The notes below the pieces were generated by a model. It saw only the letters and a program-made list of their open reading frames with translations, did no database searches and was not told where the DNA came from. This document shows positions 24,781-34,409 of a stretch of 63,238 nt of DNA, in pieces (position 1 is the stretch's first letter; the number at the start of each line of letters is the position of its first letter). The position numbers and the translations under genes were made by a program. The stretch comes from Gemmatimonadaceae bacterium (GTDB taxonomy: Bacteria; Gemmatimonadota; Gemmatimonadetes; Gemmatimonadales; Gemmatimonadaceae): NCBI GenBank assembly GCA_013697785.1, contig JACCWE010000168.1:1-63238 (forward strand), given 5' to 3'.

Positions 24781-25764
24781 CTAGTTCGCTTCGGCCCTGC
24801 GCTCGTCGAGGCACCAGTTGGCGCGCGTGCGATAGATCTCCTGCCACTTGCCCTCGCGCCAGCCCAGCACGGAGAGGAAGGTGTCGCCGCCGAACTGCCA
24901 GCCCTGCAGCACGATCTCATCGACGCCGTCGCCGTCGAGATCGAGATGGTCGAAGTAGCGGCGGAAGGCGGCGGCCGCGAGCGGCCCGTTGATGCGGTGC
25001 GAGAAGGTCGCGTGATACTGGCCCGACGCATCCTTGTCGGCAAAGACGACGAGGTGCGTCGTGCGCGTTGCGATCGACGCCGGCTTCACGGCGCCCTCGT
25101 CAATGAACGAGGCGAGAATGGTGGGCGACGCACTCGCGCCGGTGTAAAACGCGATTGCGCGGAAGCTCAGCGAGTCGAGCTTCGCTTCGTTGATCCCCAC
25201 CGACTTTGCGACCTCGTGCGAGATGGTCTTCGCGATGCGATTGACCGAGTCCTGATTCATCGGTGCGCCGGAGTGCGGCTTCCCCATCGTTGCCGTCGAC
25301 GCCAGGAACTCCAGCGTGAAGTCGGAGGCGAGGCGTCCGTTCACTCGCACGCTCGACATCGGCGTCAGCGTCGCGCAGCCGGGAAGAGCATACAGTGCGT
25401 CGGCGGTGTCGGACCACATCCCGCGCTTGATGTCGACGGTGCCATTCGCGAGACCGCCCTGATAGAGCGGATAGCTCTTGCCGGCGTGCTGATACAGGTC
25501 GTCGAACTTGTGCCATCCGGCGGGAGACAGACGAATCGCCTTCAGCTTTCCTCCGACGATCGCCGCGATCGGAACCATACGCGGATCGCTGCTCTCGCCG
25601 AACACCTGGAAGAGCACGTCGGGCTTTCCGGCGAGATCCAGCTCCTCGCCCGGGGAGAGCTGCGGCGGCCCCGATTTCTGGCCCGCGCGCACGAACTCCT
25701 TTGCCTTGTCGCATCCGGTAAGGACCATTAGGATGGTCGCTAAGCTCAAGAGTCTGGAGATCAC
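24781..25764 (-). CDS. Secreted lipoprotein of unknown function
   Basis: Protein of 327 residues with a short lipoprotein signal: GTG start at 25764, hydrophobic VISRLLSLATILMVLTGC with lipobox LTGC and a lipidated cysteine at residue 18. The mature part is soluble. Near the C-terminus, DHLDLDGDGVDEIVLQGWQFGG looks like an FG-GAP/EF-hand type calcium-binding loop. No enzyme signature recognised. It is divergent from the NurA-like gene with only 6 bases between the two start codons, so their promoters must overlap one another's coding sequence. Confidence 0.7.
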   Translation of the reverse strand: MISRLLSLATILMVLTGCDKAKEFVRAGQKSGPPQLSPGEELDLAGKPDVLFQVFGESSDPRMVPIAAIVGGKLKAIRLSPAGWHKFDDLYQHAGKSYPLYQGGLANGTVDIKRGMWSDTADALYALPGCATLTPMSSVRVNGRLASDFTLEFLASTATMGKPHSGAPMNQDSVNRIAKTISHEVAKSVGINEAKLDSLSFRAIAFYTGASASPTILASFIDEGAVKPASIATRTTHLVVFADKDASGQYHATFSHRINGPLAAAAFRRYFDHLDLDGDGVDEIVLQGWQFGGDTFLSVLGWREGKWQEIYRTRANWCLDERRAEAN

Positions 25765-25770
25765 AGCGGA

Positions 25771-26805
25771 GTGAAAGAGTTGGCGATGGATGGGGCGAGC
25801 AGTGCGGACGACAGGAAAAACGGCGCCTTCGAAACCCTCCGAAGCGTGCACGCCGCCCAGCGACATCTTCTGCGCCTGGTCCCCAACGTTCGCACGGCCA
25901 CCGGTGGTGGATCGCCGCTGGAACGCCTGGAGCGGGACATGGAGCTCCCGCATGTGATAGACGCGGAGGGCGCGGAGGATGCAACTTTGCGCGCGCGACC
26001 GGTTCCCGGCGCTCCCGTCCCTGCGTTTCGGGCCTTTCTCGACGGCACTCAGCGCAGCCAGCTGCTGGGGTGGATCGGCTCACTTCCGCTGGTTTACGGA
26101 ACGTCCGGGGCCGTCATCCGCGAGCGCATCGAGCGCCGTTTGGTGACCTGGCACACACCGCTGGTTGAACACCGCATCTACGCGCCTCTCGCCTACGCCC
26201 CACGCGAGGAGCTCGAGGGCGCGCTCGGAGCGCAGCTCGAGGACACCACGAAGCCCGGCCCCGACGGGACGATCCCGGCTCCGCACCCGACGCTTCTCCT
26301 CGAGCGCGCGACGCTGGCTGTGTCGCGCGACCGCGAGCGGCTCGAGCTCTCTCTGGCCGAAAGCTGGTGCGCGAGCCGCCCGGACGATCCGATCATGATC
26401 GACGGCGGCATCGGGTCCAGCGAAGCGGTGGCGAGCTCCGCGTGCGCCGTCGGCGTCGTGAAGAGCCACCGCACACTCTACGCGAAGGGCGAGGCGCTGA
26501 ACGTGGTGCTCGCGCTTTCGCGCGGCGAGCGGTCGAGCGTGATCCGGATAGCGCCGCGCGCACGGAGCGAGGTGCTCAGCTGGTATTTGCGGCTCCGCGC
26601 CACCGATGGACGAGACGCGCTCTGGGGACTGGTGCGCGTGGAGATGCGCATGATCGACTCGCCCGGAATCACCGCGCGCGCCGACGAGATCTCGCGATGG
26701 CTGCTCGCGGAGTCGTCGCCGCTGGCCGCGCCGGACCCGCGCTGGGACCGGATGGCATACGGGATCCGAAGCGCCGAAGAGTTTCTCCGCGCCACCACGA
26801 ATTAG
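25771..26805 (+). CDS. nurA: NurA-like 5'-3' nuclease
   Basis: Protein of 344 residues matching the NurA nuclease layout. The first acidic motif is FLDGTQR (D91), the second IMIDGGIGSS (D211), followed twenty residues later by VVKSHRTLY (K231-Y237) and a late ALWGLVRVEMR strand. In archaea NurA is the nuclease that digests the 5' strand at DNA ends in complex with HerA. Here the HerA-like ATPase gene follows 103 bases downstream, which strongly supports the call although sequence similarity alone is modest. GTG at 25771 opens the frame; the ATG at 25786 (MDGASS) is an alternative. Confidence 0.68.
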   Translation: MKELAMDGASSADDRKNGAFETLRSVHAAQRHLLRLVPNVRTATGGGSPLERLERDMELPHVIDAEGAEDATLRARPVPGAPVPAFRAFLDGTQRSQLLGWIGSLPLVYGTSGAVIRERIERRLVTWHTPLVEHRIYAPLAYAPREELEGALGAQLEDTTKPGPDGTIPAPHPTLLLERATLAVSRDRERLELSLAESWCASRPDDPIMIDGGIGSSEAVASSACAVGVVKSHRTLYAKGEALNVVLALSRGERSSVIRIAPRARSEVLSWYLRLRATDGRDALWGLVRVEMRMIDSPGITARADEISRWLLAESSPLAAPDPRWDRMAYGIRSAEEFLRATTN

Positions 26806-26908
26806 CGTCCCCCGAGGTGCGGCGTGCCCAGTCACGTCGCGCGCTGCTCACCTCTTACGTTTCGCTTCCATTCGCGGCGCCGCCGCGCGCGCTCGCATTC
26901 GAGGATCC

Positions 26909-28855
26909 ATGACCGCACCGCTCGGGCTCGTCGTCGCGACGGAACGCACGCCCAACACTCCGCATCAGTTCCAGTTCTGGACGGCGATCGATTCCCCCGT
27001 CGGCATCGGTACGATCGTGCGCGTTGACGGGCGGCAGCCGGTGGACGGACACATTCCGCATGTGTACGGCGTGGTGACCGAAGGCTTCAGCTATACCGAT
27101 CTCGCCTCGCCGCTCTTCGATGTACTCGGCCACGACGGCGATCCGGGGCAGGCCGCGTTCGCGCCGACGGAGCGCGCGGAAGTGCGACTCTACGTCGCGG
27201 CGGTGCTGCGCCACGTTCCCGAGGAGCCGCTGCAGCCGGTGCCGATGGGCGAGGTTTTTCTCGCGACGGAGGCGGATGTCGCCGTCGCGCTGCGAATGGA
27301 CACGTATCTGCGCGATGGCGCGAGCACTGGCATCCCGATCGGGCTCTATCGCTCCGGCGGCATGGACTCGGCCATCTACCTCGACGCGGAATTTCTCGTC
27401 GGGCCCGAAGCCGCGCATCTCAACATCACCGGCGTGTCGGGGCTCGCGACGAAGACGAGCGCAGTGGAGTGGCTGATGGCCTCGCTCTTCGCTCACTTTC
27501 CGAAGAGCAAGGGCTCGGTGGCCGCGGTGTGCTTCAACGTGAAGGGTCCCGATCTCTGCTTCCTCGATCAGCCCGCGGAGCTCGAGGAAAACGACCGCGC
27601 GATGTACGAGACGCTGGGCGTTCCATGCGCGCCCTTTCCCGATGTTCGCTACTTCGCGCCGTACAAGGCGGACAACGTCTCGCTCAACACGCTGCGCTCG
27701 AACGAGGAGCTGTCCGCGAACGTCCAGCCGTTGACGTGGGGGCTCCGCGAGGTGTTGCAGTTCGCCGAGGTGCTGCTCAACCGCGATGACGTCGATGCCA
27801 AGGCCGATGCACTGATCGACTTCATCAAGGAGCGGGTGCTCGACCGCGACTTCGAGGATCGCGTGCTCAAGCAGAAGCATCGGGTGCGCTCGTTCGCGGA
27901 TCTCGAGGGATGGTTCCGGGATCTGCTCAGCGGACTCGAGGATCAGGGGAGCGAGCACTGGCGCACACATCACGTTGCGACGATCCGGAAGGTGCGGAAC
28001 CGGCTATCGAATATTTCCACGCGTTGCGCGGGACTCGTCACCAACGACGGCCATACCAGCGACCTGCCGTGGGGGGACTTCACGGATCGTGCGGTGTATG
28101 TAGTGGACGTCGCGCTGGCGGAGGAGGATGCGCAGGACCTCATCTTCGCGCGTATCGTCTCGAAGCTGCGCGAGCATCTCGAGCGACGCGATCTCGGCGT
28201 CACGCACGTCGTCGTGTTCGTGGATGAGCTCAACAAGTATGCGCCAGCCGATGGACCCGACACGTACGTTCGGAAGATGCTGCTCGACATCGCGGAGCGT
28301 GGTCGGTATCTGGGGCTCGTGCTCTTCAGTGCGCAGCAGTTCCGGTCGCAGGTTCACCGGCGTGTCGTTGGCAACGCGGGAACCGCGCTCTATGGACGAA
28401 TGGATGGCGATGAGCTCGCAACGCCCGGCTATGCCGTGCTGAGCGCTGCCACGCGAACGAAGCTCGCAACGTTGTCGAAAGGACAATTGATGGTTCGGCA
28501 CCCGCATTTCACACAACCGATCTTCGTCTCGTTTCCACGCCCTGCGGTGATGCGCGGGCGCGATGGCATGGAGCGCTTTCCGCAGGCGGCCGATGTGCCG
28601 CTCGACGTCGGCGTGCTGCGTCAGCTCCGTCGCTTCGAGCCGACGCTGACACTCGCATGGGTGCAGGATGTCATCGGGCTGTACGAGGAGGAGGACGTTT
28701 TGCGCGCGTTGCACGCGACGCTCGCCCATGCTCCGGAGAAGGCGGGCGCGTATTTCAAGGCGCAGTTCAGAAAGATCGTTGGGGCGGCTCCGGCTCCTGC
28801 CGTGGCGCGCACGCCGCTCCGCGCACTCCCGGATGATGATCCCTACGCGATCTGA
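26909..28855 (+). CDS. herA: HerA-like DNA translocase ATPase
   Basis: Protein of 648 residues of the HerA/FtsK superfamily. An N-terminal beta-barrel-like HAS domain (about 1-130) is followed by the ATPase core: P-loop NITGVSGLATKTSAVEW (174-190), an unusual form lacking the GxGKT spacing; Walker B VVVFVDELNKYAP (434-446); and GRYLGLVLFSAQQFRSQVHR, the polar motif typical of HerA. HerA forms a hexamer that loads on DNA ends and drives NurA. The ATG at 26909 has GAGG just upstream. A secreted orphan overlaps its last 23 bases, and SbcD and SbcC follow. Confidence 0.82.
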   Translation: MTAPLGLVVATERTPNTPHQFQFWTAIDSPVGIGTIVRVDGRQPVDGHIPHVYGVVTEGFSYTDLASPLFDVLGHDGDPGQAAFAPTERAEVRLYVAAVLRHVPEEPLQPVPMGEVFLATEADVAVALRMDTYLRDGASTGIPIGLYRSGGMDSAIYLDAEFLVGPEAAHLNITGVSGLATKTSAVEWLMASLFAHFPKSKGSVAAVCFNVKGPDLCFLDQPAELEENDRAMYETLGVPCAPFPDVRYFAPYKADNVSLNTLRSNEELSANVQPLTWGLREVLQFAEVLLNRDDVDAKADALIDFIKERVLDRDFEDRVLKQKHRVRSFADLEGWFRDLLSGLEDQGSEHWRTHHVATIRKVRNRLSNISTRCAGLVTNDGHTSDLPWGDFTDRAVYVVDVALAEEDAQDLIFARIVSKLREHLERRDLGVTHVVVFVDELNKYAPADGPDTYVRKMLLDIAERGRYLGLVLFSAQQFRSQVHRRVVGNAGTALYGRMDGDELATPGYAVLSAATRTKLATLSKGQLMVRHPHFTQPIFVSFPRPAVMRGRDGMERFPQAADVPLDVGVLRQLRRFEPTLTLAWVQDVIGLYEEEDVLRALHATLAHAPEKAGAYFKAQFRKIVGAAPAPAVARTPLRALPDDDPYAI

Positions 28856-29711
28856 GCCGGCGCTGCCCCGCCGGCTTGCCGGCGCACTCGTTGTTGCTGC
28901 AGTGCTCATCGCGGGCGCGTCTTCGCTCGCGCGGGCGCAGCAGCCGATCATGCTTCGCATCCAGCCGCACGTGGGCGACACGATGTACACGCGCTTCGAG
29001 CAGTCGGTCGAGATGATCGGCACGCGCAACGTCCATCTCGTCGACACGACGATGACGTCGCGCATGGACATCGTGATCCTCTCGCACTCGCTCGTGCAGT
29101 CGAGCGACGGACATGGCACCACCATCCTGGCGGTCACCGACTCGGTCGCGATGGAGGGTCATGGCACAGGCGCGGCGGCGCCGACGGAGACGCTTCGGCG
29201 TGCGATGCAGGGGCGCCAGGCGCAGCTTCACATCGCGCGCGACGGCTCGGCCGAGCTGCTCGGCGCCTCCGACAACGTGACGCCAGAGGTAGAGGCGCTG
29301 TATTCGGGAATGCCCGCGACGCTGCCGGAGCGGCTCGTGTCGGTTCATTCGACCTGGGAGCGAACCGCGTTTATTCCGGTGAGCCTGGAGTCTGACTCCG
29401 CGCACTCCGCGAGAGTGCGCACGACGTACCGGCTGGATTCGCTCTCATCGAATGGGCAGCTCGCCTACATCTCGATCCACGGCACGATCTCGCGAGACAG
29501 CGCGGCGGCGCTGGTGTCGGAGTCGCTGCGAGTCGGCTCGACGGGAACGGTGACCGGGCGGATGACGATGGACCGCAAGCACGGATGGTGGATCGAATCG
29601 CACATTGCCATCGAGATCAAGAGCATGGTGACGCGGATCATCGAGCCGGTATCCACGATGCAGGTGCAAACACACATCGTGCAGTCGATGCAAACCCGGA
29701 TCGCGCCGTAA
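28833..29711 (+). CDS. Secreted protein of unknown function
   Basis: Protein of 292 residues with a signal peptide (RLAGALVVAAVLIAGASSLARA) and a beta-rich mature part full of Ser/Thr. It begins MMIPTRSEP at the ATG at 28833, inside the end of the HerA-like gene in another frame. No known domain recognised; there is a general resemblance to DUF6263-type envelope proteins (TYRLDSLSSNGQLAYISIHG). An exported protein is out of place between two DNA-repair genes, but overlap and strand make it part of the run. Confidence 0.65.
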   Translation: MMIPTRSEPALPRRLAGALVVAAVLIAGASSLARAQQPIMLRIQPHVGDTMYTRFEQSVEMIGTRNVHLVDTTMTSRMDIVILSHSLVQSSDGHGTTILAVTDSVAMEGHGTGAAAPTETLRRAMQGRQAQLHIARDGSAELLGASDNVTPEVEALYSGMPATLPERLVSVHSTWERTAFIPVSLESDSAHSARVRTTYRLDSLSSNGQLAYISIHGTISRDSAAALVSESLRVGSTGTVTGRMTMDRKHGWWIESHIAIEIKSMVTRIIEPVSTMQVQTHIVQSMQTRIAP

Positions 29712-29784
29712 CCATCGTTTCCCCGCGAGATCGCCTATCCCCAAGCTGGTAGCGGGGTTAGGGCCACACAGCTAAATTTCCCGC

Positions 29785-30966
29785 GTGCGCCTCGTACACC
29801 TCGCCGACCTCCATCTGGGCTTCCGGCAGTACCACCGGCTCACGCCAACCGGAATCAATCAACGCGAAGCGGACGTCGCGCACGCGTTCCGACGCGCCAT
29901 CGATCGCGTCATCGCGCTCGCGCCCGATATCGTCGTCATCGCCGGCGACATTTTTCACACCGTGCGCCCGATGAATCCCGCGATCATCGACGCGTTCACG
30001 CAGTTCGCGCGGCTCACGACCGAGCTGCCGAACGCGATCGTCGTAATGGTTGCCGGCAATCACGATCGCCCGCGCGCGACCGAGACGGGGTGCATTCTCA
30101 AGCTCTTTCAGAAGCTCGGCATTCACGTCGTGGTCGACGAGCCGAAGCGGCTGCAGTTTCCGGGGCACGATCTCTCCATCCTCGCGGTGCCCGACATCAC
30201 CGGCCCGCGTCCCGATCTCTCCCCCGATCCGACGGCGCGCCACAACGTCCTCGTGATGCACGGTGAGGTCGAGGGTGTGCTGCCGCACGGGGGCGATCGC
30301 GCGGCGATGGAGATTCCGCGCAGCGCGCTTTCCGCATCGCGCTGGAGCTACATCGCGCTCGGCCACTACCACGTGCACCAGCGCATCGAGAAGAATGCGT
30401 ACTACTCGGGATCGCTCGAGTATACGAGCACGGATCCGTGGGGCGAGCTCGATCAGGAGGCGCAGCTGCGTCTTCCCGGCAAGGGATTCATCGAGTGGGA
30501 TCTCGAGAGGTCGGAGCACACCTTCCACCACATTCCGGCGAGCCGGGCGCTCGTGAGTCTCGATTCCATAGCGGCGCGCGGGATGTCCGCGGCGGAGATC
30601 GACATCGCGGTCCGCGCAGCGTGCGACGATTGCGAGGGCGGCATCGAGGAGAAGATCGTGCGCCTCGTCGTGCGCGATGTGCCGCGCCACATCGTGCGCG
30701 AGCTCGACTCGCGCGCGTTGCGCGAGCTCAAGCGTCGCGCGATGCACTTCCAGCTCGACACGCGGCGCCCCGATGCGATGCGACCCAGCGGAATCGGCGC
30801 GAGCGGCGGCCGCCGGCCCACGCTCGTGGAGACCGTCACCGCGTATCTGCAGAAGCGGCCGCTCGACGATGAGCTCGATCGCGCCGCGCTCGTGCAGCTC
30901 GGCCTCGAGTATCTGAAGCAAGCGGACGATGTGGACGCGGCCTCCGCCGCGGCGCCGAGGGAGTAG
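29785..30966 (+). CDS. sbcD: Exonuclease SbcD (Mre11-type nuclease subunit)
   Basis: Metallophosphoesterase of 393 residues, the nuclease of the SbcCD/Mre11-Rad50 complex. All metal-binding motifs are present: HLADLHLG (D8, H10), VIAGDIFH (D55), VAGNHDRP (N92-D94), VMHGEVEG (H159) and ALGHYHVHQ (193-196). The C-terminal capping region is shorter than in Escherichia coli SbcD, similar to archaeal Mre11. GTG start at 29785. The SbcC start follows its stop with no spacer, as expected for a 1:1 complex. Confidence 0.93.
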   Translation: MRLVHLADLHLGFRQYHRLTPTGINQREADVAHAFRRAIDRVIALAPDIVVIAGDIFHTVRPMNPAIIDAFTQFARLTTELPNAIVVMVAGNHDRPRATETGCILKLFQKLGIHVVVDEPKRLQFPGHDLSILAVPDITGPRPDLSPDPTARHNVLVMHGEVEGVLPHGGDRAAMEIPRSALSASRWSYIALGHYHVHQRIEKNAYYSGSLEYTSTDPWGELDQEAQLRLPGKGFIEWDLERSEHTFHHIPASRALVSLDSIAARGMSAAEIDIAVRAACDDCEGGIEEKIVRLVVRDVPRHIVRELDSRALRELKRRAMHFQLDTRRPDAMRPSGIGASGGRRPTLVETVTAYLQKRPLDDELDRAALVQLGLEYLKQADDVDAASAAAPRE

Positions 30967-33438
30967 GTGCGACTCAACAGCGTCGCGCTCACGAACTTTC
31001 GGCAGCATGCCGACACGCGAATCGATTTCGATTCGGGGCTGACGGGTGTCATCGGCGCGAACGGATCGGGAAAGACGACGATCCTCGAAGCCATTGCGTG
31101 GGCGATCTACGGCACGGCGGCAGCGCGCGGGACGCGCGAATCGATCCGCCACAATCGCGCCGGCGCGCGCGCGACCGTGCGCGTGGAGCTCGACTTCGAT
31201 CTCGGCGGCCACCGCTATCACATCGTGCGTGGGCTCACGAGCGCCGAGCTCTATCTCGATGGCGGCTCGGCGCCGATCGCGAGCTCGATCAGCGGCGTGA
31301 CCGAGCTTCTCACGCGCCGACTCGGGATGACGCGCGAGGAATTCTTCAACACGTACTTCACGGGTCAGAAGGAGCTCTCCGTGATGTCGGCGATGGGGCC
31401 CTCGGAGCGCGCGCAGTTCCTCTCGCACGTGCTCGGCTACGAGCGGCTCCGGAGCGCGCAGCAGCTCGAGCGCGCGCGCAAGAATGCCCTCGTCGCGCAG
31501 ATCGGCGGGATCAGGCAGGGGATGCCGGATGCCTCGATCGTGGAGCAGCAGCTCTCGGATGCCGAGCGGCGGCTCGTGAGCGCGCGGCAGCAGAGCGACA
31601 TCGCGCGCGCGCGGCAGGCGACGGCGATCGCGGCGCGCGACGTGATTGTGCCGAAGTGGGAGAAGCTGCAGCGCGAGCGAGAGCAGCTCGTGACGCTGAT
31701 CTCCGAGATGCGCGTTGCCGAGGAGGAGGAGCGCTCGACGACGCGCGACATGGCGCGGCTGGCGCGGGACCTCGACGAGATCGCGGCGGCGCGCGCGGAG
31801 CGCACAGAACTCATGCGCGAGCTCGACTCGTACGGTGAGCTGCACAGCGAGTTCCAGCATCTCGAGATCCTCGCGCGCGAGGAGGGACGGCGGCAGGCGC
31901 TCATCGAGACGGGACAGGCGCTCGCGGACGAGCTGAACAAACTGCGTCAGCGCAGGTCGAAGGTGGAGACCGCGCCGAAGCTCGATCTCGAGGTGAGTGC
32001 GTCGCTGGAGGAGCGCCGCGAGGAACTCGAGCTCGTCGACGGTCAGCTCGAGGCGAGACGAACGGAGTGGGTGCGCGACAGGCAGGAGGCCGAGACGAAG
32101 CGGCAGTCGCTGCGCGAGCAGTACGTGGAGCTCAAGCAGCAGCGCGAGCGGCTCGCGGTGGCAGGGGAGGAGGGCTTCTGTCCCACATGTACGCGGCCGC
32201 TCGGCGTGCAGTTGCGCGGCGTGCTCGATCTCCTCGACGCGCAGATGGAGACGGTTCGCGTGGATGGGAATTACTACAAGGGACGGCTCGAGCAGCTGCT
32301 CGACATGCCCGAGGATGTGAAGGCGCTCGATGAGCGGCGGCGGGCGCTTTCCGGTGAGGTCGCGAATCTCGAGCGCCGGACCATGAAGGTGCAGCTCGCG
32401 GTGCAGGAGCTGACGCAACTCACCGGTGATCTCGCGGTAAAGGAGGAGCGCGAGGCGTCGCTGCAGCGCGATCTCGAGGCGATACCGGCGGGATACGATT
32501 CGCGGCGCCACGAGCGCGTGCGGCTGGAGATCGACCGGCTGATGCCGCTCGACGCGAAAGTGACGCGGCTCAGCGCGCAGATCGAGCGCGAGCAGACGCT
32601 CACGCGCGAGCGATCGCATGTGATCGCGAATGCCACCCAGGTTACGGCCCGGATCGTGGAGCTCCAGGCGCGCAGGGACTCGATCACAGTGTCGGAGAGC
32701 GACTTTGCGACGCTGCGCGGGCAGAACGATACCGCTGCGACCGAGGTGCGCGCGGCCGAGCTGGCGGTGGTCGGCGCGGATGGAAGCTCACATGCGGCGG
32801 TGATGGCGATGGAGGTCGCGGGCGCGGCCGCGAAGGAGCTCGCCGAGCGCCAGCGGCTGCTCGGCGAGCTCACGGTGCACAAGCGTCTGCATGATGAGCT
32901 CGACCGCGCGTACACCGATCTCCGCACCGACCTGAATTTCCAGCTGCGTCCGGAGCTCTCGGAGCTGGCGAGCGCCTTCCTGTCGGAGCTGACGGACGGG
33001 CGTTACGACGAACTGGAGCTCGACGATCAGTACAACATTGTCGTTCACGAGGATGGGCGCCCGAAGCCCGTGATCTCCGGCGGTGAGGAGGATCTGGCGA
33101 ATCTCGTGCTGCGACTGGCGATCTCGCAGATGATCGCTGAGCGCGCGGGGCAGCCGTTCTCGCTGCTGATCCTCGATGAGATCTTCGGCTCGCTCGATGA
33201 GCTCAGGCGTGCGAGCGTGCTCGAGCTGCTGCGCCGACTCAACGATCGGTTCGAGCAGGTCATTCTCATCACGCACATCGATTCGGTGCGAGATATGCTG
33301 GACCACGTGATCACCGTGCGCTACGATCCGGAGCAGGGATCGTCGACCGTCGTGCAGCACGATGGCGTTCCGGATGAGCCACTCTTGCCTGACGAGATGA
33401 TGCCGCCGTACTTCGAAGAAGCGGGAGCTGCGGACTGA
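30967..33438 (+). CDS. sbcC: Exonuclease SbcC (Rad50-type ATPase subunit)
   Basis: SMC-like ATPase of 823 residues, close to archaeal Rad50 and shorter than Escherichia coli SbcC. N-terminal Walker A GANGSGKTT (30-38), long coiled-coil arms (about 165-400 and 415-690), the zinc hook CPTC (C405 and C408) at the apex, ABC signature ISGGEEDLANL (703-713) and Walker B LLILDEIFGSLD (733-744). It tethers DNA ends and gates the SbcD nuclease. GTG start immediately after the sbcD stop; its own stop shares a base with the next start. Confidence 0.95.
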   Translation: MRLNSVALTNFRQHADTRIDFDSGLTGVIGANGSGKTTILEAIAWAIYGTAAARGTRESIRHNRAGARATVRVELDFDLGGHRYHIVRGLTSAELYLDGGSAPIASSISGVTELLTRRLGMTREEFFNTYFTGQKELSVMSAMGPSERAQFLSHVLGYERLRSAQQLERARKNALVAQIGGIRQGMPDASIVEQQLSDAERRLVSARQQSDIARARQATAIAARDVIVPKWEKLQREREQLVTLISEMRVAEEEERSTTRDMARLARDLDEIAAARAERTELMRELDSYGELHSEFQHLEILAREEGRRQALIETGQALADELNKLRQRRSKVETAPKLDLEVSASLEERREELELVDGQLEARRTEWVRDRQEAETKRQSLREQYVELKQQRERLAVAGEEGFCPTCTRPLGVQLRGVLDLLDAQMETVRVDGNYYKGRLEQLLDMPEDVKALDERRRALSGEVANLERRTMKVQLAVQELTQLTGDLAVKEEREASLQRDLEAIPAGYDSRRHERVRLEIDRLMPLDAKVTRLSAQIEREQTLTRERSHVIANATQVTARIVELQARRDSITVSESDFATLRGQNDTAATEVRAAELAVVGADGSSHAAVMAMEVAGAAAKELAERQRLLGELTVHKRLHDELDRAYTDLRTDLNFQLRPELSELASAFLSELTDGRYDELELDDQYNIVVHEDGRPKPVISGGEEDLANLVLRLAISQMIAERAGQPFSLLILDEIFGSLDELRRASVLELLRRLNDRFEQVILITHIDSVRDMLDHVITVRYDPEQGSSTVVQHDGVPDEPLLPDEMMPPYFEEAGAAD

Positions 33439-34409
33439 TGGCGATCGCAAGGCCGTGGCGCGCACCGCGCCCGAACGGACCGTACGCGGCGACGCCGGAT
33501 GATCACGCGGCGCTCAATCACGTCTTCAGTGAGGCGTTCACGGAGCGCTATCGCCGCGATGGACTCGTTGGCGTGCGCGTGCCCTTTCTCAACCCGGCGA
33601 TCTGGCATTATGCGATCGAGGACGCGAACGGCGGCGCGCTGATCTGGCGCGACGAGCGCGACGAGATCGCGGCGTTCAACATCGTGCACTGCTCGGGGCG
33701 CGAAGGGTGGATGGGGCCGCTCGCGGTGCGTCCGGATGCGCAGGGCGCGGGACTTGGGAAGGAGGTCGTGCAGAGCGGCATCGACTGGCTGACGGCGGCG
33801 AAGGCGCTGACGATCGGCCTCGAGACGATGCCGCGCACGATGGACAACATCGGCTTCTACTCCGGCCTCGGTTTTCTCCCCGGGCGTCTCACCGTCACCG
33901 TCACGATCGATTCGGCGCCGGCGAACGAGATGCCGAGCGTGTTCGGAAGGCTGAGCGCAAGCGACAAGGCGGCGGTGCTGATCGAGTGCTGCGAGCTGTC
34001 ACAGAGCGTATTGCCGGCGTGCGACTTCACGCGCGAGATCGAGATCACCGATTCCCTGGGACTCGGCGAGACGATTCTCTTTCGCGAGGGTGGAAAGCTC
34101 ACGGGCTTCGCGCTGTGCCACACGGTGCCGCTCGTGGAGGGGCGCGCGCGAGAGGAGACGCGCGTCTTGAAGTTCGTGCTGGCGAAAGAGACTGGGCTCG
34201 CGAGCGCGGTGGCGACGCTCGCGGATTTCGCGCGGCGCGGAGGGACGAGGCGCGTGGCGTTCAGAGTGCAGACCGAATATGTCGACGCGTATCAGCAGCT
34301 GATCGCGATGGGTGGTCGCGTACGCTGGACGGATCTGCGAATGGCGCTCGCGCGATATCCGGAGGGGAGGGCATCGCGCGGATTGCTGTGGAGCAACTGG
34401 GAGATCTAG
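33438..34409 (+). CDS. GNAT-family N-acetyltransferase (probable tandem GNAT)
   Basis: Protein of 323 residues. The N-terminal half is a GNAT domain with the acetyl-CoA-binding MGPLAVRPDAQGAGLGKEVV and a following MDNIGFYSGLGF segment. The C-terminal half (about 190-310) repeats the fold more loosely (VLKFVLAKETG, ASAVATLADFARRGG). The substrate could be a protein, amino acid or small amine. It starts at the ATG overlapping the sbcC stop (TGATG), so it is translationally coupled to the DNA-end-processing genes, which is unexpected for this family. Confidence 0.82.
   Translation: MAIARPWRAPRPNGPYAATPDDHAALNHVFSEAFTERYRRDGLVGVRVPFLNPAIWHYAIEDANGGALIWRDERDEIAAFNIVHCSGREGWMGPLAVRPDAQGAGLGKEVVQSGIDWLTAAKALTIGLETMPRTMDNIGFYSGLGFLPGRLTVTVTIDSAPANEMPSVFGRLSASDKAAVLIECCELSQSVLPACDFTREIEITDSLGLGETILFREGGKLTGFALCHTVPLVEGRAREETRVLKFVLAKETGLASAVATLADFARRGGTRRVAFRVQTEYVDAYQQLIAMGGRVRWTDLRMALARYPEGRASRGLLWSNWEI

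Follow-up and report, generated by a model that had tools for sequence, protein, structure and literature searches.

Mre11-Rad50 opens DNA ends, and HerA drives duplex DNA into NurA. The archaeal operon that unites the genes for these proteins, nurA-herA-mre11-rad50, goes back to Constantinesco et al. 2004 (cited in PMC5448004) and is also treated in PMC2288612 and PMC12977600. Among bacteria, the NurA-HerA pair has been described as restricted to a few groups such as Deinococcus-Thermus and has been tied to a lack of RecBCD (PMC9960219, PMC12977600). Deinococcus radiodurans, whose NurA-HerA structure is available (7f6d; PMC9960219), is without RecBCD/AddAB and without Mre11-Rad50 (PMC9960219, PMC12977600). 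Oceanithermus profundus carries a hepA-sbcD-sbcC locus in which SbcD and SbcC lie downstream of a bacterial HerA (called HepA), an arrangement attributed to recruitment in that one genus (PMC5448004). Furthermore, PMC12977600 mentions HerA-Sir2 and HerA-DUF4297 phage-defence complexes.

Arrangement of the locus

The window, by which we mean the whole stretch of 63,238 nucleotides that was analysed, is a 63 kb contig from the 3.8 Mb genome of a soil bacterium belonging to the Gemmatimonadota, which also supply its nearest named relatives, for the most part Gemmatimonadaceae. Genes for NurA, HerA, SbcD (Mre11) and SbcC (Rad50) all lie on its + strand between positions 25771 and 33438, which confirms the place and the common strand given by the original prediction. 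The features of the run are as follows.

25771-26805, + strand: NurA-family nuclease (predicted), 344 aa; family profile, predicted fold and invariant residues
26909-28855, + strand: HerA-family DNA translocase ATPase, 648 aa; phmmer match to D. radiodurans HerA and residue correspondence
28833-29711 (start approximate), + strand: DUF6263-like protein with an apparent signal peptide; Pfam PF19777, 8.4e-7
29785-30966, + strand: SbcD / Mre11 nuclease, 393 aa; Pfam Metallophos, 4.5e-11, and NCBIfam
30967-33438, + strand: SbcC / Rad50 ATPase, 823 aa; NCBIfam Rad50 PRK03918 and motifs
33438-34409, + strand: GNAT-family protein, 323 aa; Pfam Acetyltransf_1, 2.8e-11

The close packing that had been claimed for sbcD, sbcC and the following gene is borne out at both junctions. 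The TAG stop of sbcD is followed with zero gap by the GTG start of sbcC, and the sbcC stop (TGA) and the GNAT start (ATG) overlap. The four genes do not form an unbroken run, because a gene for a DUF6263-like secreted protein, which the original prediction did not mention and whose start overlaps the 3' end of herA, stands between herA and sbcD. A scan of the locus for promoters and terminators gave a result at chance level, and the frame overlaps and short gaps are only suggestive of co-transcription.

Two further details of the layout deserve mention. A secreted protein is an odd neighbour for DNA-repair genes, and the DUF6263-like gene stays by sbcD even at loci that are without nurA and herA. 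In addition, a minus-strand frame opposite the NurA start (24781-25953) runs 183 bases into NurA as called. This overlap is probably not real, because a lipobox (LTGC) suggests that the true start of the minus-strand gene lies further inside its frame. The true start of NurA may likewise lie a little downstream of the called start, given that conservation is poor over the first ~25 residues.

Identity of the four proteins

The identification of the 344-residue protein as NurA was the weakest claim of the original prediction, and searches with this sequence alone would not have upheld it: the protein matches no family in Pfam or NCBIfam, none in PADLOC and nothing meaningful in the PDB, and a scan of the whole genome with the Pfam NurA model (PF09376) came back empty. 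A verdict of ‘not NurA’ drawn from these single-sequence searches was rejected on the grounds that they lacked sensitivity. A profile built from 41 members of the family reaches the D. radiodurans NurA in the PDB at 5.5e-6, and a second profile (A2) made from 13 relatives, with distant ones added, matches the 7f6d NurA at E 1.2e-17 and Thermotoga TM1739 (1zup) at E 6.3e-9 over nearly the whole chain. A failure to match NurA by profile, which had been named in advance as grounds for abandoning the assignment, therefore did not occur. Matches of the NurA profile to 1hqi and 6j6o were dismissed as chance. Furthermore, the window NurA recognises homologues from another family of the same class (f5), and these pass the Pfam PF09376 cut-off of 21 bits with scores of 27.4 and 21.5.

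The predicted structure leads to the same assignment. An AlphaFold (AF2) model of the window NurA has a pLDDT of 90.7 and the RNase H-like fold of NurA. When it was compared with the PDB by Foldseek, the only matches at E<0.001 were 7f6d_G (1.8e-13) and the two chains 1zup_A and 1zup_B (1zup at 1.3e-10). TM-scores to these NurA structures are 0.50-0.65, and the protein is therefore best regarded as a divergent member of the family.

Invariant residues complete the case. Those that do not vary in the 41 sequences include D91, E192, D211, K231, H233 and R324, along with others, and thus include all three residues (D91, D211 and K231) on which, with the HerA neighbour, the NurA call had mainly been based. 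In a direct alignment to 7f6d_H, K201 and R309 of the D. radiodurans protein fall on K231 and R324; here 20 has been subtracted from the chain numbering, which runs that far above the numbering of PMC9960219, an offset that we infer to be a tag. Mutation of either K201 or R309 abolishes nuclease activity (PMC9960219). D91, which lies in an FxDG motif, was matched to D53 of the D. radiodurans protein via the TM1739 alignment rather than via that protein itself, and all three of these window residues are invariant or nearly so in the family. We regard D91, E192, D211, K231 and R324 as candidates for the metal site and catalytic residues. Together, family profile, predicted fold and invariant residues confirm the protein as a NurA, and a nuclease by prediction. 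Pfam mostly misses the subfamily represented here, and the evidence as a whole suggests that bacterial NurA has been overlooked since Pfam seldom detects it.

The other three proteins are more easily placed. Although HerA alone matched no Pfam family, phmmer aligns it nearly end to end with D. radiodurans HerA (7f6d_B, chain 15-618, E 1.7e-45). Its Walker A lysine K182, catalytic acidic residue D215 and Walker B pair D439/E440 are all present and correspond to K175, D220 and D487/E488 of the Deinococcus protein, whose roles are described in PMC9960219. By sequence alignment, its N-terminal region pairs with that protein from chain residue 15 and is a candidate for the HAS-barrel that docks NurA. 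SbcC is recognised by the Pfam models AAA_23, SMC_N and SbcC_Walker_B, and its best NCBIfam model is Rad50 PRK03918 (5.7e-50), above sbcc (2.7e-27). It has the Walker A motif GANGSGKTT, a zinc hook (CPTC) at residue 405, the signature SGGEED and the Walker B motif LLILDE, and thus the split ABC ATPase and hook expected of Rad50/SbcC. SbcD carries the calcineurin-type nuclease motifs DLH, GDIF, GNHD, HGE and GHYH, and is matched about equally by the NCBIfam models Mre11_Sulfo (3.7e-20) and sbcd (1.1e-19).

The locus is therefore archaeal-like in that the same four families share one cluster, and in that the solved structures closest to its SbcD and SbcC by sequence carry the names Mre11 and Rad50 and outrank SbcCD. 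It differs from the archaeal operon in its bacterial host, in the resemblance of its HerA and NurA to the Deinococcus proteins, in the DUF6263-like and GNAT genes that belong to the conserved run, and in the presence of AddAB in the same genome. With D. radiodurans it shares a homologous NurA-HerA pair with matching catalytic residues, but here SbcCD adjoins the pair and AddAB is present.

Distribution within and beyond the Gemmatimonadota

The gene order is by no means unique to one genome, as the original prediction had allowed it might prove to be. Using HerA as the sole query, we retrieved 80 loci and limited our counts to those with enough flanking sequence. Of the 76 loci in which this could be tested, 74 have NurA just upstream of HerA. 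SbcD and SbcC come after HerA in all 53 testable loci, and where the flanks on either side were long enough, 49 of 50 loci hold the four genes together. A GNAT gene comes after sbcC wherever this could be assessed (42/42), and a DUF6263-like gene is found in most loci of the window's family, giving the conserved order NurA-HerA-(DUF6263)-SbcD-SbcC-GNAT. Twelve loci have no gap at all between the reading frames of NurA and HerA. The expectation of an archaeal-like set of four families on one strand thus holds across genomes, and the cluster keeps a stable chromosomal place among household genes in most of the window's family and in part of a second one.

NurA and HerA come and go together. Among 103 listed family members, drawn from a sample of the phylum, both are present in 86 (the window's own genome included) and both are absent in 17, with no exceptions. 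At four loci (G026, G083, G025 and G028) only NurA-HerA is gone, while the flanks are intact and DUF6263-SbcD-SbcC-GNAT is kept, and loss as a unit is seen in several genera. Because of this joint presence and absence, and of clean loss with SbcCD retained, NurA-HerA behaves as a losable two-gene unit beside a stable SbcCD. Other arrangements also occur: family f5 has HerA-SbcD-SbcC-NurA as its order, with frames that overlap or are closely spaced, and the NurA, HerA and SbcCD genes of some family f9 genomes are partly or wholly unlinked.

Some NurA matches are interrupted. That of G035 (L010; contig C2, 749989-751005) holds an in-frame TAA, with HerA on a separate contig within a 1645-codon open frame, and the NurA matches of G011, G262, G303 and G160 also contain stops. 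Either decay or assembly error would account for these stops.

The set also reaches other phyla. A search of plasmid records with the HerA protein returned six, and the five records of this collection that we examined, from Cyanobacteriota (two), Chloroflexota (one) and Actinomycetota (two), all contain NurA, HerA, SbcD and SbcC together; one of them, from Nonomuraea, sits in the plasmid collection but is 11.8 Mb in size. Where these records carry annotation, NurA is labelled ‘hypothetical’. NurA also lies beside HerA in two phage records, including a Marinitoga virus, and in five IMG/VR contigs (5 loci in 2.9 million contigs, with two search patterns). No SbcC was found in these five contigs, and one shows an SbcD match at the edge of the locus. 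NurA thus accompanies HerA of this family in all twelve records. The notion that such a set is exceptional in bacteria was only partly right, since at least three further phyla carry it.

ImmA/IrrE-family metallo-endopeptidase genes occur near NurA-HerA-SbcCD clusters on a Chlorohelix plasmid (L182, 4092-4826) and a Streptomyces plasmid (L186, 3775-4947). IrrE/PprI is a DNA-damage protease of Deinococcus.

The cluster is real and widespread, and is an extension of a known machine, as represented by the archaeal operon and the bacterial case of Oceanithermus, and not a new machine. The locus shares with Oceanithermus a bacterial HerA with SbcD and SbcC downstream, but it belongs to another phylum, and in place of recruitment in one genus there is family-wide linkage that recurs in several phyla. 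As far as the consulted literature shows, the following is new: most members of one Gemmatimonadota family carry the cluster, it recurs across several phyla and in two gene orders, its NurA belongs to a subfamily that Pfam mostly misses, and the four linked genes are found alongside AddAB. The distribution is accordingly wider than PMC9960219 and PMC12977600 state, in that it takes in most of one Gemmatimonadota family and at least three other phyla, plasmids included, usually with SbcCD.

Function of the four-gene set

We consider it most likely, with fair though far from complete confidence, that the locus encodes a four-part machine that processes double-strand DNA breaks, acting as a DNA-end resection module. 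SbcC-SbcD (Rad50-Mre11) would recognise a broken, blocked or hairpin end and open it by nicking and 3'-5' trimming. A HerA hexamer could then be loaded on the end and would pump the duplex into NurA, docked as a dimer at the N-terminal ring of HerA; NurA would degrade the DNA, chiefly the 5' strand, and leave a 3' single-stranded tail for RecA. Physical coupling to SbcCD, preference for one strand and a role in repair are all parts of this proposal that go beyond the protein identities and their conserved linkage. There are also real cautions against it. Deletion of nurA or herA in Deinococcus and Thermus leaves damage resistance modestly affected or even improved (PMC9960219), and HerA-NurA of T. 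kodakarensis cuts both strands, for which reason its authors doubt a role in resection (PMC12977600).

This two-strand cutting would suit a different function, in which NurA-HerA is chiefly a shredder of double-strand DNA, directed against phage or plasmid DNA or clearing linear DNA, and adjoins SbcCD since both act on free ends. Related four-gene clusters on plasmids, the NurA-HerA pairs in the Marinitoga virus and the five viral contigs, and the loss of NurA-HerA as a unit in several genera all agree with such a role. We nevertheless judge it unlikely, given the stable place of the cluster among household genes and a viral record that is rare and without adjacent SbcCD. Nor do the surroundings resemble those of a defence system, since no PADLOC model matches any of the ten neighbouring genes or NurA, no defence partner or defence-island context is seen among those neighbours, and the match of HerA to the PADLOC HerA model is too poor to use (E 0.018). 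Filing the locus as a phage-defence system was rejected on these grounds, and the defence use raised in the original prediction is not favoured, although plasmid and viral relatives speak for it. Like the HerA-Sir2 and HerA-DUF4297 complexes, the locus pairs a HerA-type ATPase with a nuclease or effector, but the partner here is NurA.

It is also conceivable, but improbable in our view, that SbcCD and NurA-HerA are separate enzymes sharing a neighbourhood, with SbcCD cleaning hairpins and protein-blocked ends while NurA-HerA acts with RecJ/RecQ or at stalled forks. The retention of SbcC where NurA-HerA has been lost, as at the four loci with intact flanks, and the unlinked genes of family f9 speak against a four-gene machine and demonstrate that the two pairs are separable. 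NurA, HerA and SbcC lie far apart in G178, and Thermus nurA-hepA is located away from sbcCD (PMC5448004). However, two gene orders within the Gemmatimonadota and three further phyla unite the same four genes, which is difficult to account for unless they have a task in common. Direct contact between HerA and Mre11 has been reported in Sulfolobus acidocaldarius (PMC2288612).

The relation of the set to the RecBCD/AddAB enzymes differs among hosts. The original prediction had the set acting alongside or instead of these enzymes. In this genome, an AddB-like gene is followed by an overlapping AddA-like gene (G000 contig C41, L139, 7659-14044), which rules out ‘instead of AddAB’ here, and the set would therefore work beside an AddAB-type helicase-nuclease. 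An AddB homologue was found in two of 16 sampled genomes, this one and G217, where it is accompanied by an AddA-like frame. It would be wrong to conclude that most relatives are without any AddAB/RecBCD-type enzyme, and we rejected that reading, because a scan of long helicase frames found an AddAB-like pair in G068 and RecC/RecB-type genes in G074 and G101, and G026 has a RecB-like frame with PDDEXK. The same scan of G153, a single-contig genome that has NurA-HerA, found no AddA/RecB and only UvrD/PcrA-type helicases; G027 and G020 present a similar picture. Absence of AddA/RecB is suggested only for genomes in which nothing but UvrD/PcrA-type helicases appeared. Given AddB in two of 16 genomes and RecBCD-type genes in other relatives, it seems that the main resection enzyme has been replaced repeatedly. 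The four-gene set possibly acts without AddAB/RecBCD in some relatives such as G153, where ‘instead’ may hold and where it may be the main route of long-range resection.

More tentatively, and with the odds as we see them somewhat against it, nurA-herA-sbcD-sbcC might be an old, mobile bacterial recombination module whose NurA subfamily is for the most part unannotated. Its range would take in at least Gemmatimonadota, Cyanobacteriota, Chloroflexota, Actinomycetota and Deinococcota, and in lineages that show no AddA/RecB, for example some Gemmatimonadaceae, it would be the chief means of resection independent of RecBCD/AddAB. In this genome the set is accompanied by AddAB, and in others by RecBCD-type genes. 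It also offers bacterial hosts, some with relatives free of nurA-herA, for testing the disputed question of whether HerA-NurA serves in resection or in DNA destruction.

The genomes G008, G178 and G042 (L176, L177 and L178) encode UvrD-type helicases of 950-974 aa in which a DnaQ-like exonuclease domain is inserted between the helicase parts.
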